Shown in pieces: positions 29,438 through 35,667 of a stretch of 64,000 nt of DNA. The translations under genes were made by a program, and so were the position numbers. The stretch comes from Algoriphagus aquaeductus (GTDB taxonomy: Bacteria; Bacteroidota; Bacteroidia; Cytophagales; Cyclobacteriaceae). Below the pieces are notes generated by a model that saw nothing but the letters and a program-made list of their open reading frames with translations, ran no database searches and was not told the DNA's origin. The stretch covers positions 62,001-126,000 of the forward strand of contig NZ_QKTX01000010.1 of NCBI RefSeq assembly GCF_003253485.1, in the 5' to 3' direction. Each line of letters starts with the position of its first letter. The first letter of the stretch is position 1.

Positions 29438-29450
29438 GGTTACATTTTTT
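29438..29450 (+). promoter_or_regulatory. Shared GGTTACATTTT box (copy 1, before poly-Asp lipoprotein/CHAT operon)
   Basis: GGTTACATTTTTT, 28 nt before the ATG at 29479. The same GGTTACATTTT core stands before the acidic lipoprotein (34171-34182) and the ECF sigma gene (35657-35667). It is probably the recognition element of that sigma factor. A second GGTTAC occurs 21 nt downstream (29459-29464). Confidence 0.65.
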
Positions 29451-29478
29451 AAGCCGGTGGTTACTAATTCAAAAACTG

Positions 29479-30354
29479 ATGAATAAAGGAGACCTTTTCA
29501 AATTACGGATCATTCCATTTCTCCTGGTGGTTTGGTGCAGTTTTTCCTGTGTTGACAATGGAGAAAATGGCAGTGGAGAAATCGACTGCAGCACTTTTGC
29601 CTATCCGGATACACTTTTTGTGATCACCCCTGGTCAGACCAATTTGGTAAATCCTTTGAATTCATTAGAGGGCGAGTATTCCGCATCTCCAAGCGGATTG
29701 GCGATCAATCCTTCCACGGGGGCGATCGACGTCAATGCCAGTGATACCGGGTTGAAGTATAAAATCTCTTTTACGCCAGCCGGCACCGATCAAACTTGTG
29801 ATTTTTTTGTAACGATCGGAGGCATCAACTACTTGGATGGGATCTATATTCTCAGTCGGAATGAAACACTGGCCAACCCGGTGTACAATGGAGTGGTAGG
29901 CTTACCTCTTCCATGTACGGATGATGACGACGATGACGATGATGATGATGACGATGACGACGATGATGACTCCAGCTGCAAGTTTGACCCAGATGATATT
30001 CTGAAAAATTTGGGAATCGAAGTGTCCAGTAAGGGAGTGATTGATCTGAAAAAGACAGTAGAGAATGGCACATTTGGGTCTGTGCCGGTCAATGGGACGA
30101 TAGTGGATGTGGAGCTATTGTATCAGCTTTCTGATCTGAGTGCATTGGCTCAAAACAGAATTCCGCTTCGGTTTTTTTATTACGCTAAGTTTTCGGATAT
30201 CCCCCAGGCGGTTTTGGATGACATAGAAGAAAAAAGAAAATTGATAAATGAGGTAAGCACCCCCAATTCATCTAATTTTAGACTGTCTGAAACGGTTCGT
30301 CCGGCGGGAAAGCCCAGACCACCTTATGTGGTTATCGTGGCTAGTTTTGAATAG
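29479..30354 (+). CDS. Lipoprotein with a 17-aspartate tract
   Basis: 291 aa. N-terminal lipoprotein signal (IIPFLLVVWCSFSC, Cys about 24), then a domain of about 100 residues resembling bacterial Ig-like / putative-Ig modules (PSGLAINPSTGAIDVNASDTG), then 17 consecutive Asp (residues 148-164; bases 29920-29970, mixed GAT and GAC) flanked by Cys on both sides (CT-D17-SSC), then a helical-beta C-terminal part rich in Pro at its end. I do not recognise a family. The tract could bind divalent cations. It lies 30 bp before the CHAT gene on the same strand and is very likely co-transcribed; the shared upstream box ties it to the sigma factor at 35014. Confidence 0.75.
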   Translation: MNKGDLFKLRIIPFLLVVWCSFSCVDNGENGSGEIDCSTFAYPDTLFVITPGQTNLVNPLNSLEGEYSASPSGLAINPSTGAIDVNASDTGLKYKISFTPAGTDQTCDFFVTIGGINYLDGIYILSRNETLANPVYNGVVGLPLPCTDDDDDDDDDDDDDDDDDSSCKFDPDDILKNLGIEVSSKGVIDLKKTVENGTFGSVPVNGTIVDVELLYQLSDLSALAQNRIPLRFFYYAKFSDIPQAVLDDIEEKRKLINEVSTPNSSNFRLSETVRPAGKPRPPYVVIVASFE

Positions 30355-30384
30355 AAAACTGACGCCGAAAATAAGTGGCGTGGT

Positions 30385-33144
30385 ATGGTAAAGAAAATTG
30401 GGGTATGTTTTCTAGCAGGTTACTTGAGTTTACTTGGCGGTAGCCTGGGCGATTCCCTACAGTCCAGGCCCCAGCTGGATCGGGCAAATTTTCTATATTT
30501 TTTGGATAACCCCACCGAACAACAGGACATCGAGGCCATGGAACTTTACCAACAGGTTCTTTCCTTGGTTCCGGAATCCGCTGAAGCTTTGGATTATGTA
30601 TTGGCTGCCGAGCGGCTCGGAAATCTTTATTTATCCTATGGGAAAGTAGAGGATGCAAAAAAAAGCTATAATCAGGGGATTCTACTTGCCCGGGCATTCC
30701 AACTTGGGGATACTACGGTTTACGCGCATCACCTGTATTTGGGAGAGACTTATTTTTCCCTTAGCCAATTGGACAGTTCCCTATTTCATCTCAAACAGGC
30801 TGAGCTTCTTCAATCCCAATTAAACTCCAATGCCGAGCCTGAGCGATTATTTAATGCCTTGGGAGTTTATCATTATGAGACCGGAAATTTCAATCAAAGC
30901 GTCAGTTATTTTACAAAAGCGGAGTCCTTTCTGAGTGCGGATAATTCCGATTGGGAAAATTATGCCCGATATAGTTTTAGCAGCAACAAGGCTTCTGCTC
31001 TCTACCGCATCGAGCAGTTTGACCAAGCCCAACAGATTTACCGAGAGCTTTTGAAATTGGGAATCAATACGGATCAACTTCGGATTAATTTGGCCAATAC
31101 TTATATCGAGCAAGGATTGAGTGAAGGCGCTTTGGCCATACTGGATTCGATAGATTCAAATTTCGCTTCAGGGTCTCTGTCTTATCAAAATCTCCGATCT
31201 AAAGTCTTTTTGCAGCAAGGGGATCTGGAGAAATTGGAAAAACAACTGTCGATCGCTCAAAAACTGGTGTCTGCCGATACCGGTCCGGGTAAAAATCTCC
31301 AAAAGGGTATCTATTTTATATTGAGAGGGGATTTGGAAATGAGAAAAAACAAGTTCGAATCGGCCTTGAATTATTTCCATTCGGCTATAGTACAGTTGCA
31401 TTCGGACGTCAAGCTGAATGATCCTTTTTCCAACCCGCAACAAATGACCCTTGGAATGGGCGCATTGACGCTGTTTGAAGCCTTGACCAAAAAAGCAAAA
31501 GCAGCTTGGGCAATGGATGAGAATAAAGAGAAAAATCCAGGGGTTGAATTAGGGATTCAAACTTGGGAAAAGGCCTTTTCCCTGAGCAAATTTATATCGT
31601 TGAATTACGACAACGAGGAGGCGAGAATTTTCTTGGGAGACAAGGTACAGGTGGCTTATCAGGAGGCAATTGATGGTCTTTTTCACCTTACTTCTGCAAT
31701 CGGAGAGGATCGGGCGATGAAAAAGGCTTTTCAATGGGCTGAGGAAAGCAAATCCGAGGGATTGAAAATCGGAGCCATGGAAGAAGCCAAGAAAAGGTCT
31801 TTGGGAATGCCGGAGAATCTGATACAAGAAGAAAAAAACATTCTTTTTTCGATTTCCAAAAATTACCAAAAGCAGTTGGATAACCGGAATCCTGAGCTCC
31901 AAAACCAATTGGACAAGGAGTTGCTGGACCTTAATGTGGAGCTTTCCCGATTGAGGGAAAAGTTTAGAGCCTTTCCCGGATTTATTTCCTTTGAGGAGCA
32001 AAGTTTTGAGCTGGAAAAATTACAGAAGAGTTTGCCGGCTGAATATGGGATTCTTTCACTGTTCAATTCTCGCGAAAATCTGTTTTTGTTTTGGTTGGAT
32101 CGCAAAAACCTGAGTTGGAACATTATTCCTCAACAAGATTTGGATTGGGAAGGGATCATGGGATGGGCCGAATCAATCAAGTCCCCCAGAATTTCGGGCC
32201 GTTATACCGCCGATCGAGTGATTTTGGGATTTTCCAAGCAACTATTAAATCCTTTTCAATCTCGGTTGGACGTGGTTGATGAACTACTGATCATTCCTCA
32301 TGGATCTTTCCATTCCTTTCCATTCGAACTTCTTCCCCAGGATTCCCATACGTTTTTATTGGAAGCTAAGGCGATCAGTTACCAATTTTCTGCCCGATTT
32401 GTAGGGCTTACCAAGCGATCCAAAGATCAGGATCTCATGCTTTCTTTCGCTCCATTTGCCGGGATTGAAACAGACAACCCGAGTGAATTTTCTCCATTAC
32501 CGGGTTCAGAGGCAGAAATCCAGAAGTTGCCTCAAGGCCTTAGATTGGTGGGAAAAGAAGGGAAAAAGCAGGTATTCTTGGCGAAAGCTCCCGGATATCA
32601 AATGATCCATCTTGCTACCCATGCTGTAGCTTCCTCCCAGGATCCAAAGGAGGCATTTATTGCATTTTATCCCGAAGGGGAGGAATATCGGCTGTTTGCG
32701 CAGGAACTCGCCACACAGCATTTGGAATCTGTGGAGTTGGTGTACCTGAGTGCGTGCGAAACAGGAGGAGGAAAGCAAAGTGCCAGTGAAGGGTTGATCA
32801 GCTTGGCCAGAAGTTTTGCGATTGCCGGGGTAGACCAATTGGTTCTATCCGAGTGGGTCAGTGAGGATCAGGTCTCCCAATACCTTGCCCACCGATTTTA
32901 TCATCATGTGGAAAGGGGCGAAACCTATGCCAACTCCCTTCGATTGGCCAAACTTGATTTTCTTGAAGATCCTACCATGGCCCAATTTCATCACCCATTT
33001 TTTTGGACTACCTATCGGATCATCGGTCAGCCGGAAGAAGGGATAAAGAATTCAGCACACCTCTTATTTTCGCTAACGCTATTGGTAGTTAGCTTTTTTT
33101 TAGGATGGAAGTTTTTTCCAAAATCACTTGGAGCAAGTGGTTAA
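30385..33144 (+). CDS. Membrane-anchored TPR-CHAT protease
   Basis: 919 aa. N-terminal signal-like segment (VCFLAGYLSLLGGSLG), a long array of tetratricopeptide repeats (about residues 40-420), a coiled-coil linker (about 460-560) and a C-terminal CHAT domain (about 600-890), then one transmembrane helix (about 893-912). The caspase-like dyad is present: His746 in LATHAVAS and Cys791 in YLSACETGGG. CHAT proteases of the clan-CD caspase-like fold act in regulated proteolysis and, in some systems, defence. The topology (signal and C-terminal helix) would place the protease in the periplasm. Partner of the poly-Asp lipoprotein upstream; ends at a terminator shared with the convergent acidic lipoprotein gene. 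Confidence 0.88.
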   Translation: MVKKIGVCFLAGYLSLLGGSLGDSLQSRPQLDRANFLYFLDNPTEQQDIEAMELYQQVLSLVPESAEALDYVLAAERLGNLYLSYGKVEDAKKSYNQGILLARAFQLGDTTVYAHHLYLGETYFSLSQLDSSLFHLKQAELLQSQLNSNAEPERLFNALGVYHYETGNFNQSVSYFTKAESFLSADNSDWENYARYSFSSNKASALYRIEQFDQAQQIYRELLKLGINTDQLRINLANTYIEQGLSEGALAILDSIDSNFASGSLSYQNLRSKVFLQQGDLEKLEKQLSIAQKLVSADTGPGKNLQKGIYFILRGDLEMRKNKFESALNYFHSAIVQLHSDVKLNDPFSNPQQMTLGMGALTLFEALTKKAKAAWAMDENKEKNPGVELGIQTWEKAFSLSKFISLNYDNEEARIFLGDKVQVAYQEAIDGLFHLTSAIGEDRAMKKAFQWAEESKSEGLKIGAMEEAKKRSLGMPENLIQEEKNILFSISKNYQKQLDNRNPELQNQLDKELLDLNVELSRLREKFRAFPGFISFEEQSFELEKLQKSLPAEYGILSLFNSRENLFLFWLDRKNLSWNIIPQQDLDWEGIMGWAESIKSPRISGRYTADRVILGFSKQLLNPFQSRLDVVDELLIIPHGSFHSFPFELLPQDSHTFLLEAKAISYQFSARFVGLTKRSKDQDLMLSFAPFAGIETDNPSEFSPLPGSEAEIQKLPQGLRLVGKEGKKQVFLAKAPGYQMIHLATHAVASSQDPKEAFIAFYPEGEEYRLFAQELATQHLESVELVYLSACETGGGKQSASEGLISLARSFAIAGVDQLVLSEWVSEDQVSQYLAHRFYHHVERGETYANSLRLAKLDFLEDPTMAQFHHPFFWTTYRIIGQPEEGIKNSAHLLFSLTLLVVSFFLGWKFFPKSLGASG

Positions 33145-33343
33145 ACCCAAAGTGGTTTCCGGTAAAGTAAATGTTGGTCGTTTCTGGGATTAATTCATTG
33201 TGGTCCAATTAACCTTAGAAATAAAGTATTTGATTCTTTGAACTGTTAGATACTTTCGGATCTATAATCAAAAATTCAAGTAAGTTTTATTATCAAAAGT
33301 TACAGGGCTTATTCATGACATGTTTTCGATGAAGTTAGCGCAC

Positions 33344-33368
33344 AAAAGGCGCCTAAAAGGCGCCTTTT
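33344..33368. terminator. Bidirectional terminator between the CHAT and acidic-lipoprotein genes
   Basis: AAAAGGCGCC (33344-33353), loop TAAAA, GGCGCCTTTT (33359-33368): U-tract on both strands, between convergent operons. Confidence 0.8.
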
Positions 33369-33386
33369 AGGCGGATTTTGAAGTAC

Positions 33387-34130
33387 TTATCTCATCTTTA
33401 ATTCGATATCGCTGGAGGCCTTGATCCGATCCTCCACAGATCGGTAAATCGTTCGGTTTTTGTTTCGATTGATCAAAAGAACCCCATCGGTCAATTCGGC
33501 TGTTTCCAAAGCTGAGGTAGATATGGTTCTAAACCAGCTTTTGGCATCTATTTGAAGCAAAGCCAGGGGATTGTTTACCCCGTTGAGGAAAAAAAGATCA
33601 TCATCATCCTCAGCTTCCAATTCTACCTCAAAATCCATGTCATCGTCATCATCTCCGAATACTTCCAAACGGAATGGGACGGTCCGTCCGTCCTGATAGG
33701 TGTAGGTCCCATCCAACTGGATAGATGGTTGGTTTTTGTTGTCAATCAAGTCGATTTCTACTTCGATTTCTTCATAGTTACCTGCCGGAATAGCGATGAA
33801 AAAGTCAGCATTGGAGTTTAGTTCATCAAAGTTGATTTTTTTGATTTCCCTAAATTTGAATTCAAATTCCTTTTCAAATTCTCTCCCTGCCTCATCGACT
33901 CCTTCTGTTTCCAACTCGATTTTTTTGACTTGAAGAAAGCCTGAGGTTATATCCAACCCCGTGTTAGCAATTCGGGCACCCGGATTATTTGAAGTTCTCA
34001 ATTTTACTCCCATTCCCATTTTTACTTCTCCCGAACCCAATACTTCCGGATCATTGTCGTCGGTACAGGATGTAAATGCAAAAGTGAATGCTGCAAAAGC
34101 CAGTGCGTAAAATCTGTGTGTAGTTTTCAT
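33387..34130 (-). CDS. Acidic lipoprotein (DUF4382-like layout)
   Basis: 247 aa from the chosen ATG (34128-34130), giving a proper lipoprotein signal (MKTTHRFYALAFAAFTFAFT, then SC); an 18-residue upstream extension is rejected because it runs into the shared promoter box. The mature part has strand-rich segments including FFIAIPAGNYEEIEVEIDLI, similar in layout to DUF4382 lipoproteins, and acidic runs GDDDDDMDFEVELEAEDDDD (about residues 178-197). Weak family assignment. It has its own copy of the GGTTACATTTT box and lies downstream of the sigma/anti-sigma pair on the same strand, separated by 120 bp. Confidence 0.72.
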   Translation of the reverse strand: MKTTHRFYALAFAAFTFAFTSCTDDNDPEVLGSGEVKMGMGVKLRTSNNPGARIANTGLDITSGFLQVKKIELETEGVDEAGREFEKEFEFKFREIKKINFDELNSNADFFIAIPAGNYEEIEVEIDLIDNKNQPSIQLDGTYTYQDGRTVPFRLEVFGDDDDDMDFEVELEAEDDDDLFFLNGVNNPLALLQIDAKSWFRTISTSALETAELTDGVLLINRNKNRTIYRSVEDRIKASSDIELKMR

Positions 34131-34170
34131 TGGTATTTGGATTTGTTTTCCCTTAGTGGTAACCAACCTC

Positions 34171-34182
34171 AAAAATGTAACC
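34171..34182 (-). promoter_or_regulatory. Shared GGTTACATTTT box (copy 2, before the acidic lipoprotein)
   Basis: GGTTACATTTTT on the minus strand, preceded by AT as in copy 3 and 40 nt before the ATG at 34128-34130. A second GGTTAC follows 18 nt downstream. Confidence 0.65.
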
Positions 34183-34250
34183 ATCCGTTCCCCGGAAAAT
34201 AAAAAAACCTTCTTGAAGGAAGGTTTTATTAGAATTTAAGTATTTGAAAA

Positions 34251-35021
34251 TCAGTTTTTTATTCCAAGAATAAAAATTTTCAATTGATCCAACATCCCAA
34301 AATTCTGATGATAGGTATGTTGGGGGTCATTCCGGATTTTTTTCATTCTGTAGGCACCTTCCTCAATTTGTCCAAGGGATAGGTAGGCTCTAACCAAGAA
34401 ATAGTCCACCTCGTCTGCGAAATCCTTGGTTTGTAATTTTTCGTTTTCCGATTCTACTCGCATAAATTGTGAAATGGCTTTTTCATGCGCATTGGTTTCG
34501 AGGTAGGCCATTCCTAACAAGAAACTTTCCTCCAAAGAAGGATTTGCCAGGGAGCGGACCACTTCAATCACTTTTGCAAAGTCTTTATCGAGGTAAGCGG
34601 AGCGAATTGCACTGGTGGTAACTTCAGATGATCTCATTAGAGGTATGGAAAAGGCCACTGGTTGAGATATGATGCTTTCCGGACTCACGCTAAACAGTAA
34701 ATAAAATCCCATGGCTAGGCTAATTAAGGCAACCGATGCGGCGAAACGGAAAGTCCAGACAAGCACGCCCGAGGAGCCCTGAGAGATGGATTGAGTTTGT
34801 TTACCCTGCGGTCGATTGGCAAGGAAATCTCGCTGAGATTGGGAAATCACCTTTTTCCATGCAGCCAATTCGATGGCTTCTTTAGAGATTTTCAGCGCTT
34901 CCAGTTCCGATCTCAAAGCCAAATCTGTTTTGATTTCCTCTTCCAGCAGTTTGGCTTTTTCCTGTGGGAGTTCCCCATAGAGATAAGCCTCCAGTTCTTC
35001 CAATGTATAATTTTCATTCAT
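34251..35021 (-). CDS. Putative anti-sigma factor, single membrane helix
   Basis: 256 aa. The N-terminal ~85 residues (NYTLEELEAYLYGELPQEKA) look like the cytoplasmic domain of FecR/RskA-type anti-sigma factors, with the usual short helix pattern. A single membrane helix follows (about residues 87-110), then an extracytoplasmic part with TPR-like helices (AIRSAYLDKDFAKVIEVV, SFLLGMAYLETNAHEKAISQF). It overlaps the upstream ECF sigma gene by 8 nt, so it is translationally coupled, the normal arrangement for a sigma/anti-sigma pair. No zinc-binding HxxxCxxC motif is visible. Confidence 0.78.
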   Translation of the reverse strand: MNENYTLEELEAYLYGELPQEKAKLLEEEIKTDLALRSELEALKISKEAIELAAWKKVISQSQRDFLANRPQGKQTQSISQGSSGVLVWTFRFAASVALISLAMGFYLLFSVSPESIISQPVAFSIPLMRSSEVTTSAIRSAYLDKDFAKVIEVVRSLANPSLEESFLLGMAYLETNAHEKAISQFMRVESENEKLQTKDFADEVDYFLVRAYLSLGQIEEGAYRMKKIRNDPQHTYHQNFGMLDQLKIFILGIKN

Positions 35022-35622
35022 GGCGTAGTGCTTTTAAGAGTTTTTCGGAAAGTGAGGTTGAAGATTGGACTTGTTGGATTAAAGACTGAAGGCATTTATA
35101 CTTTTTGTTGCGAAGAACCTGTTCCGAACTAAAGGCCAGCTTTTCACATATATCTCTCATGGAAAGCTCTTCAAAATAAAACAGCGTCAACACCTGTTTG
35201 CATTTTTCGCCCAATGTTTCAAACAGATTCATCACAAACCTCAGGTTTTCCATTTGTTGAATTTCCTCTACAACACTGAGGTCGATTTGGCTCTTTTCGT
35301 TTTCGTATTGTTCGTTTCTGTACTGGTTGCTTTTTCTTTTTCTCAATTCATTAATCCATAAGTTTTTGCAAATGCTATACAGGAACGATTTGAGGGAGGA
35401 CTCTCCTCTGAATTTCTCATTTCTGATCATTTTTACCACTACCAGCATCGCTTCCTGAATGATATCTGCCGCATCTTCCGCCTGTCCCGAATTAGTCAGG
35501 ATCAGGTGTTCGAGCATTCCGTAATGTTGCGAATAGAGTTGACTGATGGCTTGATTGGGATTGCTTTTGGATTTAATCTGATCCAAAATCTCCTGATCAT
35601 TCAAGTGTCGGCTGAGCTTCAT
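35014..35622 (-). CDS. ECF RNA polymerase sigma factor
   Basis: 202 aa from ATG 35620-35622. Region 2: QLYSQHYGMLEHLI then EDAADIIQEAMLVVVKMI and FRGESSLKSFLYSICKNLWINELRKRKS. Region 4: ETLGEKCKQVLTLFYFEELSMRDICEKLAFSSEQVLRNKKYKCLQSL, a helix-turn-helix. A 12-residue longer frame beginning with TTG exists but starts inside the GGTTACATTTT box, so the ATG is preferred. The box lies 35 nt before this ATG, fitting autoregulation. It heads the operon with the anti-sigma gene. Confidence 0.92.
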   Translation of the reverse strand: MKLSRHLNDQEILDQIKSKSNPNQAISQLYSQHYGMLEHLILTNSGQAEDAADIIQEAMLVVVKMIRNEKFRGESSLKSFLYSICKNLWINELRKRKSNQYRNEQYENEKSQIDLSVVEEIQQMENLRFVMNLFETLGEKCKQVLTLFYFEELSMRDICEKLAFSSEQVLRNKKYKCLQSLIQQVQSSTSLSEKLLKALRHE

Positions 35623-35656
35623 CTGCTTTTGCGTTTCTTTGTCGTTTTGTCGTTTC

Positions 35657-35667
35657 AAAATGTAACC
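35657..35667 (-). promoter_or_regulatory. Shared GGTTACATTTT box (copy 3, before the sigma gene)
   Basis: GGTTACATTTT on the minus strand, 34 nt before the sigma-factor ATG. Same core as before the acidic lipoprotein and the poly-Asp/CHAT operon. Confidence 0.65.

Follow-up and report, generated by a model that had tools for sequence, protein, structure and literature searches.

Coupling between a TPR-CHAT protease and an extracytoplasmic function (ECF) sigma factor has already been described for type III-E CRISPR systems. In the CASP circuit, as set out in the relevant sections of PMC10028731, the protease Csx29 cleaves the sigma inhibitor Csx30, and three sites for CASP-sigma lie in the locus. 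Here we describe a five-gene locus of Algoriphagus aquaeductus, situated between positions 29438 and 35667 of a 64,000-nucleotide (nt) stretch of contig NZ_QKTX01000010.1 that we call the window, for which the CASP circuit is the closest described system that we found. Judged against those same sections, the two share a TPR-CHAT protease, a sigma inhibitor (a candidate one in our case) and an ECF sigma factor in one locus, as well as three sigma motifs in the promoters of that locus. They differ in that the CHAT protein and the anti-sigma factor of the Algoriphagus locus are predicted to be membrane-anchored, in that the candidate inhibitor is a TPR membrane protein, and in that lipoproteins and outer-membrane targets would be part of the system. 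There is no cas gene among the identified genes next to the five (the Cas7-11 search was not extended to the rest of the genome) and no CRISPR-like array at 24-44 kb of the window among 20 of 33 repeat families; the arrangement that marks CASP/Craspase loci, a TPR-CHAT gene with Cas7-11 and a CRISPR array next to it, was not found at the locus. No PADLOC model matches the CHAT protein at E 0.01, and a CHAT-domain profile reaches the TPR-CHAT chain in the PDB (7zoq) only at E 0.22.

Likenesses to other ECF systems are more general. The RseA/DegS/RseP-sigmaE pathway, outlined in part in PMC10028731, also combines a membrane anti-sigma factor, an ECF sigma factor and envelope targets, whereas here a caspase-like TPR-CHAT protein is proposed as the site-1 protease in the place of DegS, the anti-sigma factor carries a TPR domain and the promoter is a different one. 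Dual-membrane anti-sigma systems of the Dma/Das type (ECF21) in Bacteroides provide a further example of Bacteroidota ECF/anti-sigma pairs that control envelope traits, namely vesicle output, but Dma2 ends in a beta-barrel domain; in the sections of PMC13088901 on which this comparison draws no mention of CHAT was met, the word itself not having been searched for. The SM6 motif of Flavobacterium psychrophilum, in the portions of PMC9723704 that concern it, is likewise an ECF promoter class of the Bacteroidota, with a sigma/anti-sigma operon among its members; neither GTTAC nor CHAT occurs in the main text of that paper, and PMC7159879 contains no occurrence of sigma factor, anti-sigma or CHAT. 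An earlier note on this DNA knew of no described system with this set of genes. That claim has to be narrowed, given what the cited sections on CASP describe, but we too recognised no description of the locus in the literature, judging largely from titles and the beginnings of abstracts, and an earlier mention in ECF reclassification work is possible.

The earlier note had proposed a single ECF regulon of three operons that share the box GGTTACATTTT. An exact search finds precisely three copies in the window, where they had been claimed to lie, at 29438-29448 on the forward strand and at 34172-34182 and 35657-35667 on the reverse strand, and allowing one mismatch adds no site. Chance would yield 0.10 copies in the window and none of 100 shuffles contained three, which bears out the judgement that coincidence was unlikely. 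All three point in the direction of transcription and precede the most plausible start codons, at 29479, 34130 and 35622 by 30, 41 and 34 nt, respectively, so that promoter placement and direction stand while the range of 28-40 nt given before does not quite. Taken alone, however, the 11-mer is not specific and we reject it as evidence: the whole genome holds 8 copies versus 11 for a reversed control, and the remaining 5 lie inside reading frames that measure 235-761 codons from stop to stop.

What is specific is a two-part site in promoter position. Exactly 17 nt past GGTTAC follow TTACTAA in P1 (29438-29467, forward strand), CCACTAA in P2 (34153-34182, reverse strand) and CGACAAA in P3 (35638-35667, reverse strand), and GGTTACATTTT looks like the -35 half of a promoter of the form GGTTAC-N17-CGAC(T/A)AA, the -10 element of which the earlier note had overlooked, as it had the targets beyond the locus and the wide conservation of the gene set. 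Transcription would presumably start some 5-16 nt ahead of each ATG. P1 precedes a poly-Asp lipoprotein of 291 amino acids (29479-30354) and, after a gap of 30 nt on the same strand, the TPR-CHAT cysteine protease of 919 amino acids (30385-33144; Pfam CHAT, 6.4e-47). On the opposite strand, P2 precedes an acidic lipoprotein of 247 amino acids (33387-34130), and P3 precedes the ECF sigma factor of 202 amino acids (35014-35622), which overlaps by 8 nt the start of a probable anti-sigma factor of 256 amino acids (34251-35021). A terminator-like hairpin (34204-34227, reverse strand; a pattern match only) is consistent with separate transcripts for the sigma/anti-sigma operon and the acidic lipoprotein gene. 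Note that a mechanical list of open reading frames places the start of sigma at TTG 35658 and that of the acidic lipoprotein at ATG 34184, both within the promoters; the downstream ATGs at 35622 and 34130 are most plausibly the better starts. Automatic gene calls may thus bury the promoter in coding sequence at these in-frame upstream starts, and calls in several relatives have likewise placed it there.

The same signature recurs in related genomes. A model built on 22 sites of related loci reads GGTTAC, A, an (A/T)-rich spacer and CGAC(T/A)AA, with little information at most spacer positions, although these sites were chosen by regular expression and the fixed letters are partly there by construction. 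A count of all 6-mers, made in loci found via the poly-Asp protein, does not depend on that choice: GTTACA occurs in 65% of the upstream regions of genes belonging to the five-gene set (module regions) versus 3.5% of those of other genes. With both elements and the fixed spacing required, GRTTAC-N17-C(G/A/T)AC is found in 86/124 module regions versus 5/395 others, and GRTTAC-N17-NNACHWA in 82/124 versus 5/395. The five other genes matching the first pattern are DUF2490-type genes (L096, L097, L099), a 453-aa gene (L131) and a small lipoprotein-like gene (L137); the second pattern returns the same genes except that L140 takes the place of L131. With a somewhat looser pattern, counted for each gene separately, the signature precedes 39/42 sigma, 32/34 acidic lipoprotein and 32/48 poly-Asp genes but none of 148 control genes (anti-sigma 0/44, CHAT 0/47, NAPRTase 0/17, EamA 0/22, AhpC/TSA 0/18). 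These loci are related by descent, so that the counts are not independent events, and they leave aside L144-L147 (long proteins with partial matches) and genes with less than 150 nt of upstream sequence. The motif is hence kept upstream in most orthologous loci, one of the checks that the earlier note had proposed, and its main claim, that three operons, sigma's own among them, each have a site and form one ECF-type regulon, gains from the conservation at fixed spacing.

To judge from their joint occurrence, these genes form a conserved five-gene module of the Cyclobacteriaceae. All five stand together in contigs of Algoriphagus, Cyclobacterium, Aquiflexum, Belliella, Lunatimonas, Pararhodonellum and others, and the sigma/anti-sigma pair is maintained in relatives. 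The acidic lipoprotein is present in 36/48 loci; its counterpart in Mucilaginibacter is weakly similar, and it is missing from the Ferruginibacter and Flavobacterium loci. Within Algoriphagus the module is patchy (19/72 genomes, not counting G167 and G173, whose poly-Asp profile matches are at E 2.4e-6 and 2.0e-5).

How might such a locus work? We propose a self-amplifying, envelope-sensing ECF circuit in which the TPR-CHAT protein is part of the switch, a reading that on balance we hold to be the probable one. Sigma would be held by a single-pass inner-membrane anti-sigma factor whose TPR domain faces the periplasm. A signal, picked up via the lipoproteins or jointly with them, would activate the periplasmic, membrane-anchored TPR-CHAT protein, which would clip the periplasmic side of the anti-sigma factor, whereupon general site-2 proteolysis would liberate sigma. 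Freed sigma would then act at GGTTAC-N17-CGACWAA promoters to transcribe the sigma/anti-sigma and poly-Asp lipoprotein/CHAT operons and the acidic lipoprotein gene and, away from the locus, one or more genes for outer-membrane proteins. The steps differ in standing. Promoter, regulon and conserved module are well supported by sequence comparison, and the protein topology is a prediction. We infer that the sigma factor of the locus reads the shared promoter, as we do the nature of the signal; that CHAT would cleave the periplasmic part of the anti-sigma factor seems most likely, albeit with less certainty than sigma reading the promoter. The order of events may thereby be the reverse of that in the earlier note, where loss of an anti-sigma block activated the protease.

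The protein features are in keeping with these roles. Sigma probably belongs to the ECF (group IV) type, being short and having regions 2 and 4: TIGR02937 (2e-23) and Sigma70_r2 (6.6e-11) match above cut-off, the region 4 model (r4_2, 8.4e-5) below it. The anti-sigma factor consists of an N-terminal domain, one transmembrane-like stretch (residues 94-112), a linker with a conserved Arg130 and a C-terminal TPR domain, and matches the anti-sigma model NF052375 at E 0.0017, far under the cut-off of that model. In the CHAT protein the dyad His746/Cys791 is kept in 70/70 homologues, and both the C-terminal transmembrane-like stretch (893-911) and an N-terminal hydrophobic stretch in 68/70; the protein is therefore predicted to be periplasmic and anchored in the inner membrane, which agrees with the earlier suggestion of a periplasmic caspase-like protease.

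That CHAT should be part of the switch, and not only its output, is suggested mainly by the fact that its linkage to sigma/anti-sigma pairs reaches wider than that of the lipoproteins. Among 21 lower-scoring anti-sigma loci a CHAT gene is found in 17, of which 5 also have a poly-Asp gene, so that CHAT lies nearby in 12 of the 16 loci devoid of the latter. Twenty further loci contain CHAT sequence in 16 cases, three of them only fragmentary or distant (L287, L293, L295), and the combined figure for CHAT sequence in the same stretch is 33/41. CHAT matches number only three in the window's own genome, and two of these lie close to sigma/anti-sigma pairs. The second such locus (L058 9251-13532, contig C5) comprises an ECF sigma factor, a TPR anti-sigma factor and CHAT, has neither a poly-Asp nor an acidic lipoprotein gene, and shows no GGTTAC site ahead of sigma. 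The wider tie between CHAT and sigma pairs is what speaks against a second scenario, in which the regulon is the same, ordinary site-1/site-2 proteolysis frees sigma, and CHAT is an output that degrades or processes envelope proteins, possibly together with the lipoproteins. This scenario is a real possibility, if one that we rather doubt: the CHAT gene lies behind P1, after the lipoprotein gene and outside the anti-sigma operon, and the other likely targets of the regulon are envelope proteins.

Those other targets emerge from a search of 72 Algoriphagus genomes with GRTTACAWN15CGACHWA, which yields 67 sites in 26 genomes (reversed control: 17). The 19 genomes with the module account for 58 of them, and the 53 without it for 9; six of the eight such sites looked at (all but G154:C19) fall inside genes. 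Within module genomes, 46/58 sites belong to the module locus, including two on a duplicate contig of it in G151. The other 12 comprise seven intergenic sites 19-27 nt before an ATG, four sites inside genes, and an eighth gene-preceding site (G164) that was scored inside an over-long frame yet is just upstream of a beta-barrel orthologue. Four of the eight genes behind these sites are of the barrel family, three encode DUF2490 proteins and one has sub-threshold lectin similarity. Sites in promoter position hence mostly accompany the module, the genome-wide positional preference for which the earlier note had asked. The pattern applied to the window's own genome, the letter choice of which excludes P3, returns seven sites: P1, P2, four inside reading frames, and a site at C1:228867-228896 (L059 1501-1530), followed after 11 nt by the ATG of an outer-membrane beta-barrel gene (OMP_b-brl) that a protein search identified as the orthologue of the barrel targets in relatives. 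Across the genus the barrel gene carries the signature in 10/18 genomes with the module versus 2/23 without (p 0.0017), or 7/15 versus 1/22 when near-identical genomes are merged (p 0.004). The regulon thus seems to extend beyond the module to at least one likely outer-membrane target elsewhere in the genome. A search of the own genome for a DUF2490 protein, which in some relatives is a likely target, returned none; this search had no positive control. Across the wider family, motif matches outside sigma loci do not rise above background and were set aside: 148 genomes give 30 sites versus 15 in the reversed control, 18 of the 30 in sigma or module loci and 10 of the other 12 inside reading frames. 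In genome G123, which has the module, an exact site (L204 2001-2030) precedes a histidine kinase/response regulator gene by 28 nt.

Several observations weigh against the circuit that we propose. Control of CHAT by sigma would also fit a role as output, the promoter was not found at 16/48 poly-Asp genes, and in three stretches (L131, L133, L135) the poly-Asp gene is not accompanied by a sigma pair. In the own genome the looser pattern finds 7 sites versus 26 in the reversed control, so that only position, not number, distinguishes them, and the barrel test weakens when the signature is called by matrix score: 11/18 versus 6/23 (p 0.031), 9/18 versus 4/23 (p 0.043) and 7/18 versus 3/23 (p 0.075) at cut-offs of 0, 5 and 10. 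Nor does the conserved Arg of the anti-sigma linker, a possible cleavage site, go with CHAT. Arg130 had looked like a candidate because orthocaspases cut after positively charged residues (PMC6426788), and in a first set of 78 sequences it was present in 76/78 linkers, both exceptions being without CHAT. In a wider set of 98 sequences Arg occurs in 80/86 linkers with CHAT versus 8/10 without (p 0.19); with six CHAT-linked sequences also lacking it, Arg130 was rejected as a CHAT-specific site and is therefore not used as evidence. Cleavage sites of Craspase orthologues are themselves non-conserved in the part of PMC11106740 that lists them (L|D, M|K, A|S); analogy thus gives no reason to look for a cleavage motif.

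Two genomes without a sigma orthologue, G149 and G198 (L192, L201; best sigma match 27%), keep the motif ahead of the barrel orthologue, 24 nt from an ATG of that gene and at sites initially scored inside frames. This is evidence against strict dependence on sigma, or a relic, or the work of another sigma factor of the same specificity. It would also suit a regulator other than the sigma factor of the locus, for example another ECF sigma for which the neighbouring gene is merely one target, as would three sigma paralogues (L142 2497-3036, L143 4019-4558, L057 12750-13289) that combine a GGTTAC -35 element and a 17-nt spacer with a different -10 element, TATTAAC. With the site standing ahead of 39/42 sigma genes, and with sites accompanying the module across the 72 Algoriphagus genomes, we regard this as improbable. 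Chance repeats or remnants of duplicated DNA, to which the lack of genome-wide over-representation of the 11-mer might point, can be dismissed with near certainty given the expectation of 0.10 copies in the window and the recurrence across genera of both elements at 17-nt spacing (86/124 versus 5/395).

Returning to the circuit with CHAT in the switch, we suggest, tentatively and as something short of probable, that Bacteroidota possess a broad family of ECF switches operated by a periplasmic inner-membrane TPR-CHAT protein that frees sigma by cutting a TPR anti-sigma factor, with poly-Asp and acidic lipoproteins as sensors. Such a family would be a non-CRISPR, envelope-facing counterpart, perhaps the ancestor kind, of Csx29/Csx30/CASP-sigma. 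One bacterial family shows the linkage of sigma, TPR anti-sigma and intact CHAT in many of its genomes, here among ordinary metabolic genes (the identified neighbours in the window are EamA, AhpC/TSA, ABC ATPase and NAPRTase). Should CHAT be the gate, regulated proteolysis of anti-sigma factors would gain a new class, one from which the CRISPR version could plausibly have arisen. With a promoter that is defined, and that stands before a likely target away from the locus too, the regulon can be put to a direct test in Algoriphagus.

The two lipoproteins have no Pfam family above cut-off. Both show an invariant Cys after the signal (Cys24 following a lipoprotein-type signal in the poly-Asp protein, Cys22 in the acidic one), as expected of the Asp-rich lipoprotein-like proteins that the earlier note had recognised. 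The poly-Asp protein has a conserved C-terminal part and 17 consecutive Asp residues (window 29914-29979), in mixed GAT/GAC codons, between the conserved Cys146 and Cys167; 12/14 relatives have a run of at least 7 Asp/Glu. Its N-terminal domain is Ig/cadherin-like by a weak fold match, a search with its model giving weak Ig/cadherin/S-layer-like matches at TM-scores of about 0.2. The acidic lipoprotein is mostly beta in its model, with DUF4382 similarity below threshold, and its fold search returned no match below E 0.001. Cation binding by either is a guess from composition.

Finally, two small lipoprotein-like genes on Ferruginibacter contigs carry the promoter signature (L137 13156-13683 and L140 7648-8118), with PepSY_like similarity above cut-off in L140 only. 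Some relatives have an extra operon in or near the module (L096, L097, L099, L100 and L115, at about 11.5-14.6 kb; L040, L043 and L047), which in L099 encodes, by Pfam, a DUF2490 protein, a P-loop protein (sub-threshold CbiA/DUF1611) and an ABC transporter transmembrane protein. The same promoter precedes this operon in L096, L097, L099 and L100, and also the corresponding gene in L040 and L047.

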